A program made the position numbers and the translations under genes. Of a stretch of 44,248 bases of DNA, positions 12,602-31,575 are shown one piece after another (position 1 is the stretch's first letter; each line of letters starts with the position of its first letter). Source of the DNA: an uncultured Bacteroidales bacterium (GTDB lineage Bacteria > Bacteroidota > Bacteroidia > Bacteroidales > WCHB1-69); contig ONAB01000024.1 in NCBI GenBank assembly GCA_900315705.1, forward strand, positions 1 to 44,248, given 5' to 3'. The notes beneath the pieces were generated by a model. That model made no database searches. It saw nothing but the letters and a program-made list of their open reading frames with translations, and was not told the origin of the DNA.

Positions 12602-13476
12602 AAAAAATTCTGTTTTGGATTCAGACCATCCGGGCTTATTCCCTGTTTGCCTCGCTCTGCCCGGTGCTCATAGGCCTGCTGGTCTCTTCAGAGGTGAACG
12701 TTTGGGTCGGAATTTGCACAGCCGTCTGCGCAATGTCCCTCCAGTCAATGTCGAATCTTGTCAACGACTACTACGACTTCAAGCGCGGGGCCGACAAAGC
12801 CGGGCGCGAGGGCTTCAAACGGGGACTGGCAGAAGGCAGTGTCTCTGTCCGCCAAATCCGGAACGGCATCCTGATCACGCTGTTCATCGCCGTAATTACA
12901 GGGGCCATCCTGTTGGTCTATTCCGGCTTCGTGCGGCACGAGTGTCAAGTCACCTTCAACTGGGTCTATTGTCTGCCCATCCTGCTCATCGGGCTCACCT
13001 CGATGCTGTTCGCGTGGCTCTACACCGCCACCGACCACTCGCTCTCCTATCTGGGCATCGCCGACATCTTCGTGTTCCTCTACTACGGGGTGATTGCCTC
13101 CACGGGCACCACCTATCTGCAGACGCACACCTTCTCGATGACCTCCTTCTGGGCGGGCGGTGTGTGTGGCCTCTGCTCTATGTGTGTATTGATTGCCAAC
13201 AACTTGCGTGACATTAAAGACGACCGTGAGGTGGGCAAGCGCACCTTCCCCGTGCGTTTTGGCAAGCGCGCCGGCGAAATCGGGATGCTGATGGTCATCC
13301 TGCTGATGCCCGTGATGGCCTACCTGGCCTACGGCTGGAGCCTCCCGATGTTAATCATCCTGCCTGCCCTGCTGCTCTACTACTTCACCCGCCGCGCCCA
13401 AGGCGCCCAATATAACAAATGCCTGTTAGGCGCGCTGCTGATTAATATATTATATGTAGTATTGTGCATAATTTAA
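12598..13476 (+). CDS. menA: 1,4-dihydroxy-2-naphthoate polyprenyltransferase
   Basis: Integral membrane UbiA-family prenyltransferase that attaches the polyprenyl chain to DHNA to give demethylmenaquinone, the substrate of the upstream ubiE product. 292 residues. The first Asp-rich prenyl-diphosphate motif is NLVNDYYDFKRGADK. The second region is NNLRDIKDDREVGKRTFPVR. Several hydrophobic membrane segments follow (IFVFLYYGVIAST, MLMVILLMPVMAYLAYG, LLINILYVVLCII). The start codon is fixed by the ATGA overlap with ubiE. Three bases after the stop an octamer repeat array begins. Confidence 0.95.
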   Translation: MKKILFWIQTIRAYSLFASLCPVLIGLLVSSEVNVWVGICTAVCAMSLQSMSNLVNDYYDFKRGADKAGREGFKRGLAEGSVSVRQIRNGILITLFIAVITGAILLVYSGFVRHECQVTFNWVYCLPILLIGLTSMLFAWLYTATDHSLSYLGIADIFVFLYYGVIASTGTTYLQTHTFSMTSFWAGGVCGLCSMCVLIANNLRDIKDDREVGKRTFPVRFGKRAGEIGMLMVILLMPVMAYLAYGWSLPMLIILPALLLYYFTRRAQGAQYNKCLLGALLINILYVVLCII

Positions 13477-13478
13477 AA

Positions 13479-13508
13479 AACTAAGAAATTAAGAAACTAA
13501 GAAATTAA
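13479..13508. repeat. Octamer tandem array (AAYTAAGA), solo copy
   Basis: AACTAAGA AATTAAGA AACTAAGA AATTAA: about four tandem 8-bp units starting 3 bp after the menA stop. It matches the array at 30015-30046 at all but two positions of a 30-base stretch. The copies at 30 kb flank a four-helix-bundle gene, but here there is no gene between arrays. Confidence 0.8.
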
Positions 13509-13522
13509 AGGGGATATTTCAA

Positions 13523-13571
13523 TTCACTGATTACTAATCACTGTTCACTGATCACTGTTCACTAATCACCA
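13523..13571. repeat. Heptamer tandem array (WTCACTR) in the dtd leader
   Basis: Seven contiguous 7-bp units: TTCACTG, ATTACTA, ATCACTG, TTCACTG, ATCACTG, TTCACTA, ATCACCA. The array ends 6 bp before the dtd ATG and so forms almost all of its immediate 5' sequence. No other promoter-like element was found between menA and dtd. Confidence 0.8.
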
Positions 13572-14030: not shown

Positions 14031-14032
14031 GG

Positions 14033-14102
14033 TGCGAGGTGCGATTTACGATGTGCGATGTACGATTTACGATGTACGATTTACGATGTACGATTTGCGA
14101 GA
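14033..14102. repeat. Heptamer tandem array (TRCGATK), ten units
   Basis: Ten contiguous 7-bp units, from TGCGAGG through alternating TACGATT / TACGATG / TGCGATG to TGCGAGA. The array starts 3 bp after the dtd stop codon. The third base of each unit is stable (C), and variation is confined to R at position 2 and the last bases. Confidence 0.85.
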
Positions 14103-14591: not shown

Positions 14592-14605
14592 AAGAGCTTG
14601 GTAGA

Positions 14606-14728
14606 CCCGCACAAGCGACGAAGGAGCGCAGTGTGGAGCCGTGAGGTGACCCGCACAAGCGACGAAGGAGCGCAGTGTGGAACCGTGAGGAGGAAACCCC
14701 GCACAAGCGACGAAGGAGCGCAGTGTGG
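14606..14728. repeat. Three identical 31-bp direct repeats
   Basis: Copies at 14606-14636, 14650-14680 and 14698-14728 begin CCCGCACAAGCGACG and end GGAGCGCAGTGTGG. The spacers are 13 and 17 bp and share CCGTGAGG. The last copy ends 4 bp before the coaE stop codon. The unit carries CACA near its start and TGTG at its end. It is not a CRISPR array: the spacers are too short and resemble each other. Confidence 0.85.
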
Positions 14729-27420: not shown

Positions 27421-28248
27421 TTATTGTTCCACGAATTTGATTCTATCCGCCAGTTGGAGAAAGTAGTCGTTGGACCAGATGTCAAGGACGTGAGGATCTG
27501 CAATAAAATCCTTCACATCCGTTTTCACCAGATTAATATCTGTGGAAGCCAATTTGTTGCATAATTTCTGGAAAAAGGTCTCTTTGTCGATCTCTTCTCC
27601 GTTGAATTCCTTGATTCTTGCCTGCAAATGCTTGAAATCTAAAGGAATGTTGTTGCGAATATACCATTCAAAATCAAACCAATCGCGTCCTTTGATTCTC
27701 TGTTGCCAAGCTCTGTAAATAAGTGCGTGCATCTTTCCCGCAAATAGATCAGGCAGTGTGAAACACCTTGTCATAAATGAAAACGGTTCTAAAAGCACTT
27801 TTTGCTCTGTATCAAATTGTAAAGGTGGATCTGTATCCAGTTCAATCTTAATTTTTACGGTTTTCTTAGTTTGGAACTTGATTTCGTATGCTTCAGTGTT
27901 TTCCTTCAAAAAAGCAGACTCCACTCTTCCAAAGATTTTTTTGTCTTTCTTTGTTATAGTTACTGTGAGGCCACACATCTTGAATTCGTTCACGATGGCG
28001 GGAAAGAAGTTCTCCAAATGAATGTCTTCGCGTTTGGCTGTCAAGGAAAAATCCAAATCCTCCGAGAAACGGGGAAGCTGATGAAATATTCGCAAACAAG
28101 TGCCACCATAGAATGCCGCGTAATCAAAAAAACCACCACGATAAAGTCCCCCTAAAACAATCTGTTGCATCACTTCGTGAGAAGCGTTTGGAGTTGATGT
28201 GCCCATTTCTTTAACGTGATTTTCAAGCATCTTTTCATATATTGTCAT
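27421..28248 (-). CDS. AbiEii/AbiGii-family nucleotidyltransferase (toxin)
   Basis: 275 residues. The DNA-polymerase-beta-type nucleotidyltransferase core is YGGTCLRIFHQLPRFSEDLDFSL (about 47-70), containing the GG-T and the Asp-x-Asp metal site. The conserved later motif FAGKMHALIYRAWQQRIKGR / DWFDFEWYI is at about 165-190. AbiEii toxins add nucleotides to tRNA or otherwise use NTPs to stop growth, as the effector of the AbiE abortive-infection / toxin-antitoxin pair. The ATG overlaps the upstream AbiEi stop (ATGA), the standard coupling. It sits next to tRNA-Arg, a common site for accessory genes. Confidence 0.9.
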   Translation of the reverse strand: MTIYEKMLENHVKEMGTSTPNASHEVMQQIVLGGLYRGGFFDYAAFYGGTCLRIFHQLPRFSEDLDFSLTAKREDIHLENFFPAIVNEFKMCGLTVTITKKDKKIFGRVESAFLKENTEAYEIKFQTKKTVKIKIELDTDPPLQFDTEQKVLLEPFSFMTRCFTLPDLFAGKMHALIYRAWQQRIKGRDWFDFEWYIRNNIPLDFKHLQARIKEFNGEEIDKETFFQKLCNKLASTDINLVKTDVKDFIADPHVLDIWSNDYFLQLADRIKFVEQ

Positions 28249-28877
28249 TGTTGTATGATTTTTATGAGGTTATTTAAAATTGTTCTTTTCTCGCCTTGTT
28301 CTGCACAGGATTCAATGATTTTTACATCAAAATGTGATAATGAATCCATATCTAATCGGAGATCTTCTTCCAAGTATTGCCACAATCTTTTCAAAGATCG
28401 GTTTGGTATATAGCTGTCATAGAGGATGAAATCGCACAATGCTTTTTCAGGAGAGGCTATTATAAATGAAACCCCACCTTCTTTGACGATTCTTAGCCCT
28501 ATACTGAAATAGGGGACTTTAACCTGATAGTAATCAAAAATGCCCAAAGGAGTATCAAATGACCGCGAACGCTTGATTGTGACTGAGGTCATACGATGTA
28601 CCTGTTCAGGAATCAGTCCATACCAACGCAACGCCCAGCGAAGGGAAACGTAAGAAGGACCATAAATGTGGTTCGCACATAGCGGTGCACTGATAGGCTT
28701 TCCACTGATTTCTGGGTTCACTACGTACAATCCTCGCTTCAGCCGGATAAGATCGCCTTCCTTTTCCAAAGATTGAATCTTCTTTGAAGGCACACCTAAC
28801 TGCCTATAGTTCGATTCAATCATCTTACCATAAACAGGCACATTTTCATATTGCAAAAGTGGGTTCTTTTTCATCAT
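28245..28877 (-). CDS. AbiEi-family antitoxin / transcriptional regulator
   Basis: 210 residues. An N-terminal winged helix (YRQLGVPSKKIQSLEKEGDLIRLKRGLYVV, about 25-55) matches the DNA-binding domain of AbiEi antitoxins. The C-terminal antitoxin domain has GPSYVSLRWALRWYGLIPE, a TPLGIFDYYQV-type strand and ASPEKALCDFIL. It counters the AbiEii toxin and represses the operon by binding inverted repeats; a 17-bp inverted repeat is present at its own promoter. Two Met codons open the frame, and either could be used. Confidence 0.9.
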   Translation of the reverse strand: MMKKNPLLQYENVPVYGKMIESNYRQLGVPSKKIQSLEKEGDLIRLKRGLYVVNPEISGKPISAPLCANHIYGPSYVSLRWALRWYGLIPEQVHRMTSVTIKRSRSFDTPLGIFDYYQVKVPYFSIGLRIVKEGGVSFIIASPEKALCDFILYDSYIPNRSLKRLWQYLEEDLRLDMDSLSHFDVKIIESCAEQGEKRTILNNLIKIIQQ

Positions 28878-29063: not shown

Positions 29064-29981
29064 TTATTTGTTGACCTGGAATTTCTTGTCGCCATTGACG
29101 AAGAAGTTGACAATCTGGTTGGCGGCGGCCAAACCAGCGTTGATGTTGGCCTCGGCGGTCTCGGCACCCTGCTTTTTCGGGGTGGCGAAGAAGCGCTTCT
29201 CAAACTTGCTGAACTCTTCCATAGCGTCGGGAGCGATGTCGGTGCAATATTTGAGGTCCTCGCGCTCTGCCATCAAAGCGATGAGCTCTTCCTCGTTGAT
29301 GACCTCCTTGCGGGCGGTGTTGATCACGCAGCCGCCTTTGGGCATCAGGCCGACCAAAGCCTTGTTGATGGACTTCTTGGTCTGGTCGTTGGCCGGGATG
29401 TGCAGGGAGATGTAGTTGCAGTTCTTGTACATCTCTTCGAGGGTAGCCGGGACAACGACGCCTTCGGCTTCCATCTTCTCTTTCGGCACGAACGGGTCGA
29501 AGGCCCAGACTTCCATACCGAGGGCGCGGGCCTTTTCAGCCACGAGACGACCCACGTTGCCGTAAGCCTGGATACCGACCTTCTTGCCCTTCAGCTCAGC
29601 ACCGGTGCCGGGTTTGAAGGTGTTGCGGGCCATATAGATCATCATACCGATGGCAAGTTCAGCCACGGCGTTGGAGTTCTGGCCGGGGGTGTTCATCGCC
29701 ACGATGTTGTTGGCGGTGCAAGCGGCCAGGTCAAGGTTGTCGAAGCCGGCGCCGGCGCGCACCACGACCTTGAGGTTCTTGGCGGCGTCCACCACTTGGG
29801 CCGTCACCTTATCGGAACGCACAATCAGAGCGTCCACATCTGCCACGGCAGCGTACAACTCCTCAGCGGTTTCATATTTTTCCAATAATGCCAATTCATA
29901 GCCGGCTTTTTCCACGATAGCGCGAATGCCATCCACAGCGGCCTTGGCGAAAGGTTTTTGGGTTGCAACTAATACTTTCAT
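29064..29981 (-). CDS. serA: D-3-phosphoglycerate dehydrogenase (Bacteroidales type, no ACT domain)
   Basis: First step of serine synthesis: 3-phosphoglycerate to 3-phosphohydroxypyruvate with NAD. 305 residues, the short form without the C-terminal ACT regulatory domain. VVVRAGAGFDNLDLAA (catalytic Arg region) and a Rossmann domain are visible. The dinucleotide loop reads VGIQAYGNVGR, so the first Gly of GxGxxG is Ala. Near the C-terminus the position of the usual catalytic-His motif TPHxGGST reads TPKKQGAETAEAN, without the His. Context (serC upstream, same strand) still supports SerA. It lies downstream of a four-helix-bundle gene inserted between serC and serA. Confidence 0.85.
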   Translation of the reverse strand: MKVLVATQKPFAKAAVDGIRAIVEKAGYELALLEKYETAEELYAAVADVDALIVRSDKVTAQVVDAAKNLKVVVRAGAGFDNLDLAACTANNIVAMNTPGQNSNAVAELAIGMMIYMARNTFKPGTGAELKGKKVGIQAYGNVGRLVAEKARALGMEVWAFDPFVPKEKMEAEGVVVPATLEEMYKNCNYISLHIPANDQTKKSINKALVGLMPKGGCVINTARKEVINEEELIALMAEREDLKYCTDIAPDAMEEFSKFEKRFFATPKKQGAETAEANINAGLAAANQIVNFFVNGDKKFQVNK

Positions 29982-30014
29982 TATTCTTTGGTGTTTATTC
30001 GTTTAAATTCTGAA

Positions 30015-30046
30015 AACTAAGAAATTAAGAAGTTAAGAAATTAAGA
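30015..30046. repeat. Octamer array (AAYTAAGA), left flank of the four-helix-bundle gene
   Basis: AACTAAGA AATTAAGA AGTTAAGA AATTAAGA: four tandem 8-bp units on the plus strand. The stop codon of the minus-strand four-helix-bundle gene (30041-30043) is made from the last unit. It is nearly identical to 13479-13508. Confidence 0.85.
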
Positions 30047-30415
30047 ATCTCCGCTCTTGTTCTTTCTGGATTTTATGGTTTTAAGACTTCGAGTAAGCAG
30101 TGTGATTATCTCGTCCGTGTCTTTCAACATACTCTCCGCTTGTTCTGGAGTTAAATAATCTGTGTCTCTCAGCAATCTTAACCAATAATGTGTCTCCTTT
30201 GCTTCTTTCAGGGAAATATGCATTTTGGCTATAAAATCCTTATCCGATTGTGCTCCAGAGGCTTCTTCTATATTCGCCCCTATAGATGTGCCACAACGAA
30301 TAATCTGCTTGGAGATATTATACTCGCTTTTTTCACCTTGAAGAAATTTCGTGAGATTCACAATCCTTATGGCAAAAAGATAGCTTTTATCTTTCAAAAC
30401 ACTCTTTTTTGCCAT
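30041..30415 (-). CDS. Four-helix-bundle protein (bS23 / 23S rRNA intervening-sequence / Avd-like family)
   Basis: 124 residues. It matches the four-helix-bundle family in its helix pattern and in the central signature IIRCGTSIGANIEEASGAQS (about 38-57), followed by FIAKMHISLKEAKETHYWL and an acidic-basic C-terminal helix. Family members are encoded in 23S rRNA intervening sequences, occur as Avd in diversity-generating retroelements, and very often stand alone with unknown function. No reverse transcriptase or template repeat is nearby. Both its start and stop codons abut or lie in octamer arrays arranged as inverted repeats, so it looks like a discrete inserted cassette between serC and serA. 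Confidence 0.88.
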   Translation of the reverse strand: MAKKSVLKDKSYLFAIRIVNLTKFLQGEKSEYNISKQIIRCGTSIGANIEEASGAQSDKDFIAKMHISLKEAKETHYWLRLLRDTDYLTPEQAESMLKDTDEIITLLTRSLKTIKSRKNKSGDS

Positions 30416-30453
30416 AATTTCTTAGTTTCTTAGTTTCTTAATTTCTTAATTCG
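30416..30453. repeat. Octamer array, right flank, inverted relative to the left
   Basis: Read on the minus strand: AATTAAGA AATTAAGA AACTAAGA AACTAAGA AATT, directly joined to the ATG of the four-helix-bundle gene with no base between. The other end is 3 bp from the serC stop codon (30457-30459). Together with 30015-30046 it forms an inverted pair around the gene. Confidence 0.85.
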
Positions 30454-30456
30454 TTA

Positions 30457-31575
30457 CTATTTGTTCGCCTTCTCAAACTCTTGCATACAAGCCACGAGTG
30501 CTTCGACGTCTTCCACGGTGCAAGCGTTGTAGAGGGAAGCGCGGAAGCCGCCGACGGAACGGTGACCCTTGATGCCCACCATACCTTGCTCCTTGGCGAA
30601 AGCCATAAAAGCGTCCTGCTTGTCTTCGTAACCCGGGGCCATCACCCAGCAGTGGTTCATAATGGAACGGTCGGCCTTGTCAGCGACGGTGCCCACGAAC
30701 ATACTGTTGCGGTCGATTTCCTCGTACAGGAGGTTGGATTTCTTCATATTGATCTTGTTCATCTCCTCAACGCCGCCGATGGTGTTCTTCAGCCAGGTGA
30801 GGGTTTCGTGCATCACGAAGATGGGCAGCACGGGAGGCGTGTTGAACATAGAGATGTTCTTGGCTTCCTCAGCAGCGTGCGTGCGATAGTCCACCATCGT
30901 GGGCAGCGGATTCATATAGGCGCGGTCGCCAATCTGGCCGAGGATGTCCTTGCGCACGATGACGAAAGTGACACCGGCAGGGCCGACGTTCTTCTGGGCA
31001 CCACCGTAGATGAGACCGTATTTGGTCACATCGACGGGACGGCTCATAATGTCGGAGCTCATATCGGCGACGAGCATCACGTTGTTACACTCCTCAGCGG
31101 TGAAGTCCTTGCGGATTTCCGTACCGTAGATGGTGTTGTTCGTGGTGATGTGGAAATAGTCGGCGTCGGCGGGAACGGTCCAACCTTTCGGGATGTAGTT
31201 GTAGGTCTTGTCTTCAGAGGAGGCGACGATCTCCACCTTACCGAAGTTCTTGGCTTCCTTGGCGGATTTCTTAGCCCAAACGCCAGTCTGCAGATAGGCG
31301 GCTTTCGTCTTCAACAGGTTGGCAGGCACAGTGAAGAACTGGGTGCTGGCACCACCACCGAGGAAGAGCACCTCGTAGTTGTCGGGGATGTTGAGAAGGT
31401 CACGCCACAACTGACGGGTCTCAGCCATAACGCGTTCCCAACCCGGAGTACGGTGGGAAATCTCCATCAAACCGATACCGGTGTTGTCAAAATTGCGGAT
31501 TGCGTTGATCGTAGATTCAACGGCTTCTTTCGGAAGGACGCACGGTCCTGCATTAAAATTATGTACTTGCTTCAT
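30457..31575 (-). CDS. serC: Phosphoserine aminotransferase
   Basis: PLP enzyme that converts 3-phosphohydroxypyruvate and glutamate to phosphoserine and 2-oxoglutarate. 372 residues, full length. It begins MKQVHNFNAGPCVLP, and has the phosphate-binding region LFLGGGASTQF, the PLP Asp in VADMSSDIMSRP, and the Schiff-base Lys in YGGAQKNVGPAGVT (about 195). It has its own promoter and is the first gene of the serC-(cassette)-serA unit. Confidence 0.96.
   Translation of the reverse strand: MKQVHNFNAGPCVLPKEAVESTINAIRNFDNTGIGLMEISHRTPGWERVMAETRQLWRDLLNIPDNYEVLFLGGGASTQFFTVPANLLKTKAAYLQTGVWAKKSAKEAKNFGKVEIVASSEDKTYNYIPKGWTVPADADYFHITTNNTIYGTEIRKDFTAEECNNVMLVADMSSDIMSRPVDVTKYGLIYGGAQKNVGPAGVTFVIVRKDILGQIGDRAYMNPLPTMVDYRTHAAEEAKNISMFNTPPVLPIFVMHETLTWLKNTIGGVEEMNKINMKKSNLLYEEIDRNSMFVGTVADKADRSIMNHCWVMAPGYEDKQDAFMAFAKEQGMVGIKGHRSVGGFRASLYNACTVEDVEALVACMQEFEKANK

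Follow-up and report, generated by a model that had tools for sequence, protein, structure and literature searches.

Several described kinds of DNA resemble the locus that is the subject of this report. Intervening sequences (IVSs) of rRNA may lack a long gene, as is known from Salmonella, or may encode a protein of the S23 (IVP) family. The STRRs of cyanobacteria are short tandem arrays of heptamers, and in the Foldback elements of Drosophila short tandem repeats make up the inverted ends, between which a gene may or may not lie. The IVS in the 23S rRNA of Coxiella contains an S23p gene, is excised by RNase III, and has two or three GACAGAT heptamers directly before the S23p start; according to the available sections of PMC4990558, the protein is probably not made and the gene is decaying. 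The same sections cite older ideas of IVS mobility, and name Leptospira and Brucella as other bearers of such sequences. Tandem heptamers are also described in their own right: TAACTGA in Beggiatoaceae, Cyanobacteria and Bacteroidetes (excerpts of PMC4679880), and GGGAATC in Xanthomonas, where inverted cases number 70 and 75 in two genomes and the arrays are not in general linked to mobile elements (excerpts of PMC4692102). Neither of these two papers mentions an S23 gene under that name, and among the matches listed in the open-licence literature, preprints aside, we found no general link of S23 genes to inverted heptamer arms. The Pfam family of S23 proteins, PF05635, resembles Avd of diversity-generating retroelements (PMC10053308, in extract), and such genes are only named in the accessible parts of PMC10910872, PMC8700078 and PMC5524665.

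Here we describe a stretch of 44,248 nucleotides from an uncultured Bacteroidales bacterium (contig ONAB01000024.1), which we refer to as the ‘window’. We consider it fairly probable that the window holds a hairpin-armed mobile cassette, of a family that is kin to the IVSs of 23S rRNA.

THE CASSETTE BETWEEN serC AND serA

The whole cassette occupies 30015..30453 on the minus strand. Its gene (30041..30415, minus strand) encodes a four-helix-bundle protein of 124 amino acids. A preliminary description of this DNA had called the gene bS23/IVP-like, and family profiles bear this out well above their curated cut-offs: 102.9 bits against 33.8 for PF05635 (E 1.3e-29), and 115.9 against 24 for TIGR02436 (E 9.2e-34). 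By sequence, the closest solved relative of the protein is 2rld, which was deposited with five chains; 2gsc, the structure of the Xanthomonas S23 protein XCC0516, is also found by the S23 family profile and has five chains as well. Upstream of the gene lies an arm of tandem AAYTAAGA on the minus strand (30419..30451; TRF 30415-30451, period 8), and downstream an inverted AAYTAAGA array on the plus strand (30015..30047; TRF 30014-30047, period 8). TRF and the arm alignment agree that these arrays bracket the gene as had been described. The stop codon (TTA at 30041-30043 on the plus strand) is inside the left, downstream array, and the ATG (30413-30415) adjoins the right, upstream one. An octamer scan finds 14 matches to AAYTAAGA in the window, against 2.29 expected, and none of 100 shuffles reaches as many. 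The two arms pair in inverted orientation over 33 aligned bases with a score of 46, where 2000 random flank pairs matched in first-order composition reach no more than 30. In the predicted RNA fold of 30008-30456, the outermost stem consists of the two arrays (z -5.16; none of 100 shuffles does as well).

On either side, and in the same direction as the S23 gene, the ORF list gives a gene upstream (30457..31575, minus strand) and a gene downstream (29064..29981, minus strand), which we take, following the preliminary description, to be serC and serA. By the arm boundary used here the right array ends 5 bp before the serC stop (30457), and not 3 bp from it as first reported. The S23 gene is the sole gene of annotated size between the arms; the cassette has no transposase of its own, and a profile search found no Y1 transposase within it.

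Like the Coxiella-type IVS, as presented in the available sections of PMC4990558, the window cassette has an S23 gene surrounded by a stem of complementary ends, and in Coxiella, too, heptamer repeats stand near the S23p start. Unlike an IVS, it sits outside a 23S rRNA gene, in a junction of protein genes; each of its arms repeats in tandem a word particular to the cassette, a genome has several occupied sites, and the protein is strongly constrained. With STRR, TAACTGA and GGGAATC arrays the cassettes share words of 7 bases, an intergenic position and some inverted pairs, and the intergenic window arms, with their period of 8, fit the roughly 7-base tandem words of STRR-type arrays. They differ from all of these in that their arrays are the arms of a gene cassette, and from the Foldback elements in being bacterial, far smaller, and furnished with an S23 gene.

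Other features of the window may be recorded here. Two adjoining ORFs 3' of serA (27421-28877) resemble a pair of the AbiEii/AbiEi type. Tandem units of 9, 18, 126 and 168 bases occupy 1186-2882, where the 9-base unit AACGGTACC would read Asn-Gly-Thr. A 44-base unit is repeated in about 2.7 copies, with 92% matches, at 14604-14728, outside the ORFs inspected.

INVERTED ARMS ACCOMPANY S23 GENES

PF05635 matches the window's own genome seven times. Each of the four strong matches (L001-L004) lies between inverted short tandem arrays, with arm scores of 52, 41, 46 and 62. Their words are all different, being, in that order, GCCATTA-like, GTGATTA-like, AAYTAAGA and a 14-base unit. At the three weak matches (L005-L007) no arms are seen by eye, and L005 also lacks a tandem array.

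A search of sixty relatives with TIGR02436 gave matches in 53 of the 61 genomes, the window's own counted. S23 genes for the genus and order set were those that scored highest, which leaves weak members of the family under-sampled; the 125 hits became 119 when flanks of less than 150 bases and near-identical copies were dropped. Arms were scored by aligning the upstream flank with the reverse complement of the downstream flank, at a threshold score of 30. Inverted arms were found by this test in 104 of the 119 S23 genes, the remaining 15 falling below threshold, compared with 5 of 226 other ORFs from these loci, taken as controls. At the same threshold, arms in direct orientation were found in 13/119, and arms between mismatched flanks of different loci in 28/592. 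A multi-phylum set comprised the best 80 loci of the scan, less 3 with short flanks. Here 49 of 77 genes have inverted arms and 28 are below threshold, against 13/77 in direct orientation, 9/461 mismatched pairs and 12/218 control ORFs; those that pass include Clostridia, Planctomycetes, Alphaproteobacteria, Cloacimonadota, one cyanobacterium and one candidate-phylum genome. On plasmids, 28 records have an S23 match. Twelve loci were fetched, two pairs of which are close copies, and all twelve score at least 32, with medians of 15-21 against the flanks of other loci.

These counts, set against their controls, establish that the S23 gene and its inverted arms belong together. The preliminary description had suggested such a count, and arrays are indeed enriched at this family rather than scattered at random around unrelated genes.

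Some other identities were tried and rejected. rRNA-embedded copies among the multi-phylum loci were looked for with Rfam, which gave no rRNA match in the 60 of 80 loci scanned. A phage-borne origin was rejected when the L002 protein, the sole query, found no match in 50,697 phage records, as was a defence gene when PADLOC returned no hit for two S23 proteins.

VARIATION AT GENE JUNCTIONS IN CONGENERS

A serC protein match is present in 38 of 41 genus genomes, and the serC–serA locus was read in 30 of these 38; in G031, outside the 30, an S23 gene lies beside serC by coordinates. Comparison of these loci, which had also been suggested, reveals a polymorphic site: the junction holds an S23 gene in 9 congeners, a gene-less hairpin in 16, and no array in 5. 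The gene is therefore not conserved, array-free, at this locus in all relatives. The array-free gaps measure 11-38 bp, in agreement with the earlier statement that serC and serA are normally neighbours. The S23 genes at this junction (9/30), and at the second and kdsA junctions described below (4 and 1), were verified with the profile.

The nine S23 genes are of two kinds, six with AAYTAAG-like words (ATTAAAT-like in G018) and three with TGTTGAAC-like words. Their proteins are 19-31% identical between kinds, and 56-96% or 73-75% identical within them. The arm score is at least 28 in seven of the nine, and 25 in G025 and G062. The gene-less stretches of the 16 genomes are 76-132 bp long, self-complementary, and mostly readable as inverted heptamer arrays; in all 16, self-complementarity exceeds about the 95% level of 50 shuffles, barely so in G003. 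On the serC tree, the four states of the junction need at least 10 changes. G005 and G061, which are well-supported sisters, hold the two different S23 genes (L047 and L051, 29% protein identity), and presence of the gene differs within the pairs G008/G030 and G018/G029, the latter fork being weak. Homologous recombination of the flanking genes may also exchange cassettes.

At a second junction, an S23 cassette with GGTTATT words is present in G006, G032, G026 and G007; G064, cut off by a contig edge, is not counted. In G027 the same word builds a gene-less hairpin. At a third, after a gene that we take to be kdsA, a cassette (L141) occurs in G009 alone, 1 of 30. An array has no room in 12 of the 30, where the neighbouring genes overlap by 4 or 11 bp, and the other resolved junctions have spacers of 10-107 bp, several with heptamer arrays; five of the 30 loci were read by eye only. 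L141 has ATTC on both sides, which could be a target duplication; the relatives with an empty site are too distant for comparison on this point. Its protein is 84-87% identical to those of the second-junction cassettes L122, L123, L138 and L140, and its flanks are unrelated to theirs. Among the cassettes fetched, no near-identical pair occurs within one genome, the best same-genome pair sharing 69% protein identity, and no recent copying within a genome was seen; movement is therefore rare or old.

CASSETTES ON CYANOBACTERIAL PLASMIDS

A common cassette, 81-84% identical, occurs at three unrelated sites on plasmids of Aulosira (L310), Nostoc (L311/L312) and Trichormus (L317). The outer flanks score as unrelated DNA, and similarity stops at the arms. 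These loci, and L141 compared with L122/L123/L138/L140, display what broadly defines a mobile element, namely a common element at unrelated sites with sharp ends. Mobility is well supported for the cyanobacterial cassettes and for some of those in congeners, and we infer that the window cassette itself is likely to be mobile. Shortened copies also occur: L320 (170 bp) retains both arms and lacks most of the S23 gene, and L324, at the site of L317 and L323, lacks the right arm and most of the gene. Among other plasmid locations, an armed S23 cassette lies antisense between nrdB and nrdA on a cyanobacterial plasmid, and two different organisms have armed cassettes in type I-D CRISPR loci, between cas6 and cas4 (the cassettes at these sites are L313, 2489-2857; L315, 2495-2854; and L318, 2489-2857).

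In Nostoc N6 (L322), the S23 gene is split by a gene-less element of 182 bp (1040-1221). The alleles L311 and L312 are unsplit, and in the alignment to them no base is lost and there is no target duplication. The ends of the 182-bp element are GAGTCA-type arrays, inverted to each other. Its relatives occur at 98 places in 43 plasmid records (Nostocales plasmids), and include L326 and L329-L333; one copy lies between two pieces annotated as RarA. GATAA stands at the same flank in 5 of 6 copies, and in L322 is also present in the empty allele; none of the four S23 cassettes inspected for this motif showed it alongside. Absence of target duplication, hairpin ends and a fixed flanking motif recall the IS200/IS605 elements, and the MITE-like 182-bp element might be an IS200/IS605-type MITE that merely carries such repeats. 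The likeness of S23 cassettes to MITEs and IS200/IS605-type elements lies in the gene-less hairpin forms, in clean insertion without target duplication (one case), and in the GATAA flank of the 182-bp element. They differ in that the S23 cassette is without a transposase, and in that its arms vary in length and word and have no fixed terminal repeats.

ARM WORDS AND CONSTRAINT ON THE PROTEIN

A clear period is present in 162 of 218 arms, and is 7 in 111, 8 in 17 and 14 in 13. The repeat word varies from cassette to cassette, and is mostly shared by both arms of a cassette. For tests of word and orientation, genes with an arm score below 28 were left out, and 109 of the 119 were kept. Over 44 separate sites, cassettes with more similar proteins have more similar words (Mantel r 0.286, where 5000 permutations reach at most 0.177). 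Mean arm similarity is 0.19 below 30% protein identity, 0.25 at 50-60%, 0.34 at 60-75% (16 site pairs) and 0.56 above that (2 site pairs); the correlation is modest. Where proteins at orthologous sites have an identity of 0.4-0.6, the words are alike (at least 0.6) in 5 of 82 pairs (6%). Since words are mostly different at orthologous sites, arms change fast, but together.

The S23 protein is under strong purifying selection in congeners, with a median dN/dS of 0.066 over 60 non-independent pairs of equal length, from orthologous sites and with at least 60% protein identity. Such selection at fixed sites suggests a function beyond mere carriage. Cassettes sit in gene junctions, often directly after a stop codon. 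Of 106 cassettes, 77 run in line with their upstream neighbour, and in these the arm starts at a median of -1 bp from the stop of that gene; the other 29 do not run in line with it. The upstream arm, read in the direction of the S23 gene, contains little C (7.6%).

The main rival to mobility is regulation of the operon, for which there is scope given how strongly the protein is constrained at fixed sites. The S23 protein would in that case bind the arm repeats in the operon mRNA and control translation or stability; the locus would be inherited, and its variation would come from recombination of flanking genes. The low dN/dS at orthologous sites fits such a host regulator, as do the position of the array, which immediately precedes the ATG and takes part in the outer stem of the RNA (z -5.16), and the preponderance of cassettes in line with the upstream gene. 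A regulator of this kind sits poorly with 44 separate sites and with frequent absence at the serC–serA and kdsA junctions. Nor does it account readily for the 29 cassettes out of line with their upstream neighbour or the one that runs antisense in the nrdB–nrdA interval, for the 6 sites where orientations are opposite, or for a common cassette at unrelated plasmid sites, and we judge it unlikely.

SOLO ARRAYS

In a 377-kb sample of the genome, made up of L148-L167 and the window, there are 31 intergenic short-period arrays, the two window arms included. Among the 29 others, 18 lie within 60 bp of the 3' end of a gene and three are self-complementary without an S23 gene. Both window arms have an inverted partner within 600 bp that scores at least 30, and none of the 29 does. 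One of the solo arrays in the window is the AAYTAAGA array after menA (13473..13509, plus strand), without an inverted partner of score at least 30 within 600 bp. Fifteen bp on, and in the opposite sense, follows a heptamer array of GTGATTA/GTGAACA words (13524..13569, minus strand), the words found in the arms of L002 in the same genome; 13473-13569 is thus a two-word composite. A third array, of CGATTTA/CGATGTA heptamers (14032..14101, plus strand), has a word similar to that in the arms of L036 and L098 in relatives.

The preliminary description had singled out an array at 13479 as the empty or excised site of a mobile cassette. The array is real. It is one of many, and we reject it as an excised or empty site: solo arrays are frequent (29 in 377 kb) and array-free junctions exist. 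Solo arrays are common background, not excision scars. What survives of that reading is a cassette that carries its repeats, in a family tied to inverted arrays, at a polymorphic site.

The abundance of solo arrays, three of them self-complementary, speaks for a passive origin, in which arrays arise and spread alone, arms are homogenised by conversion or template switching, and the S23 gene is merely stable between them; so do the heptamer arrays described, with no known enzyme, in Beggiatoaceae, Cyanobacteria and Bacteroidetes (PMC4679880, in excerpt) and in Xanthomonas (PMC4692102, in excerpt). This origin is made distinctly unlikely, however, by the want of inverted partners at all 29 arrays other than the window arms, by the control ORFs, which already point to inverted array pairs being rare around other gene families, by the occurrence of gene and arms together at unrelated sites, and by the correlation of word with protein.

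ORIENTATION AND CANDIDATE ENZYMES

At 6 of the 44 sites the cassette has opposite orientations in different species, with protein identity across orientations reaching 82, 88 and 95% at three of them. Recombination between inverted arms that flips the S23 gene on or off, as in an invertible switch, could produce this. Inversion is seen between species only, however, the cassette has no recombinase gene, and independent re-insertion gives a like picture; orthologous pairs number 177 in the same orientation against 48 inverted, figures that call for a test per site because many pairs come from few large sites (33 of the 48 inverted from one). We regard a switch as very improbable.

Y1 transposase matches occur in 37 of 41 genus genomes, with five in the window's own; there are none in G016, G061, G034 and G035, and G061 has a cassette. 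That Y1 enzymes move S23 cassettes is a guess. One Y1 match of the genome, C6:17280-17624, lies between arrays of 22- and 18-base repeats (L152, 17057-17817). The least credible alternative is an element in which S23 acts like Avd of diversity-generating retroelements, with a reverse transcriptase (RT) supplied in trans: PF05635 does resemble Avd, a related protein family (PMC10053308, in extract), but the idea is weakened by RT matches in just 9 of 41 genus genomes, by genomes rich in S23 matches that have no RT match (10 in G013, 12 in G032, 11 in G017), and by a search of the whole assembly that found no RT match, in accord with the original remark that none is nearby.

A MODEL FOR S23 CASSETTES

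The reading that we favour is that a small mobile element would be made up of an S23 gene and a pair of inverted arrays whose word, usually 7 or 8 bases long, is particular to the cassette. The arms of the cassette would pair into a hairpin, both as RNA and as single-stranded or cruciform DNA. We infer that the S23 protein, with five chains in both solved relatives, may recognise the arm repeats of its own kind, given that joint descent could also explain the correlation between word and protein. The hairpin would be the substrate of a moving enzyme provided in trans by the host, for which a Y1-type single-strand transposase is a candidate. On RNA, the arm stem could be a substrate for RNase III, by analogy with the Coxiella IVS (available sections of PMC4990558), and its cleavage would make insertions in operons tolerable. 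Gene-less hairpins would be internal-deletion or non-autonomous forms.

A broader proposal is more tentative, and we rate its chances as somewhat short of even. S23 cassettes could constitute a separate class of mobile element, in which a pentameric ring protein reads a tandem word of 7 or 8 bases in two inverted arrays, word and protein changing together. The IVSs of rRNA would then be the rRNA-resident members of this class, and many of the unexplained heptamer arrays, among them those of cyanobacteria, Bacteroidota and Xanthomonas, would be remnants of it that lack the gene or keep one arm.

The cassette would link three old puzzles: the role of the S23/IVP protein, the origin of rRNA intervening sequences, and the intergenic heptamer arrays of many bacteria. 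It offers a known protein fold, a defined putative nucleic-acid partner in its own arms, matched and mismatched natural variants, and empty sites.
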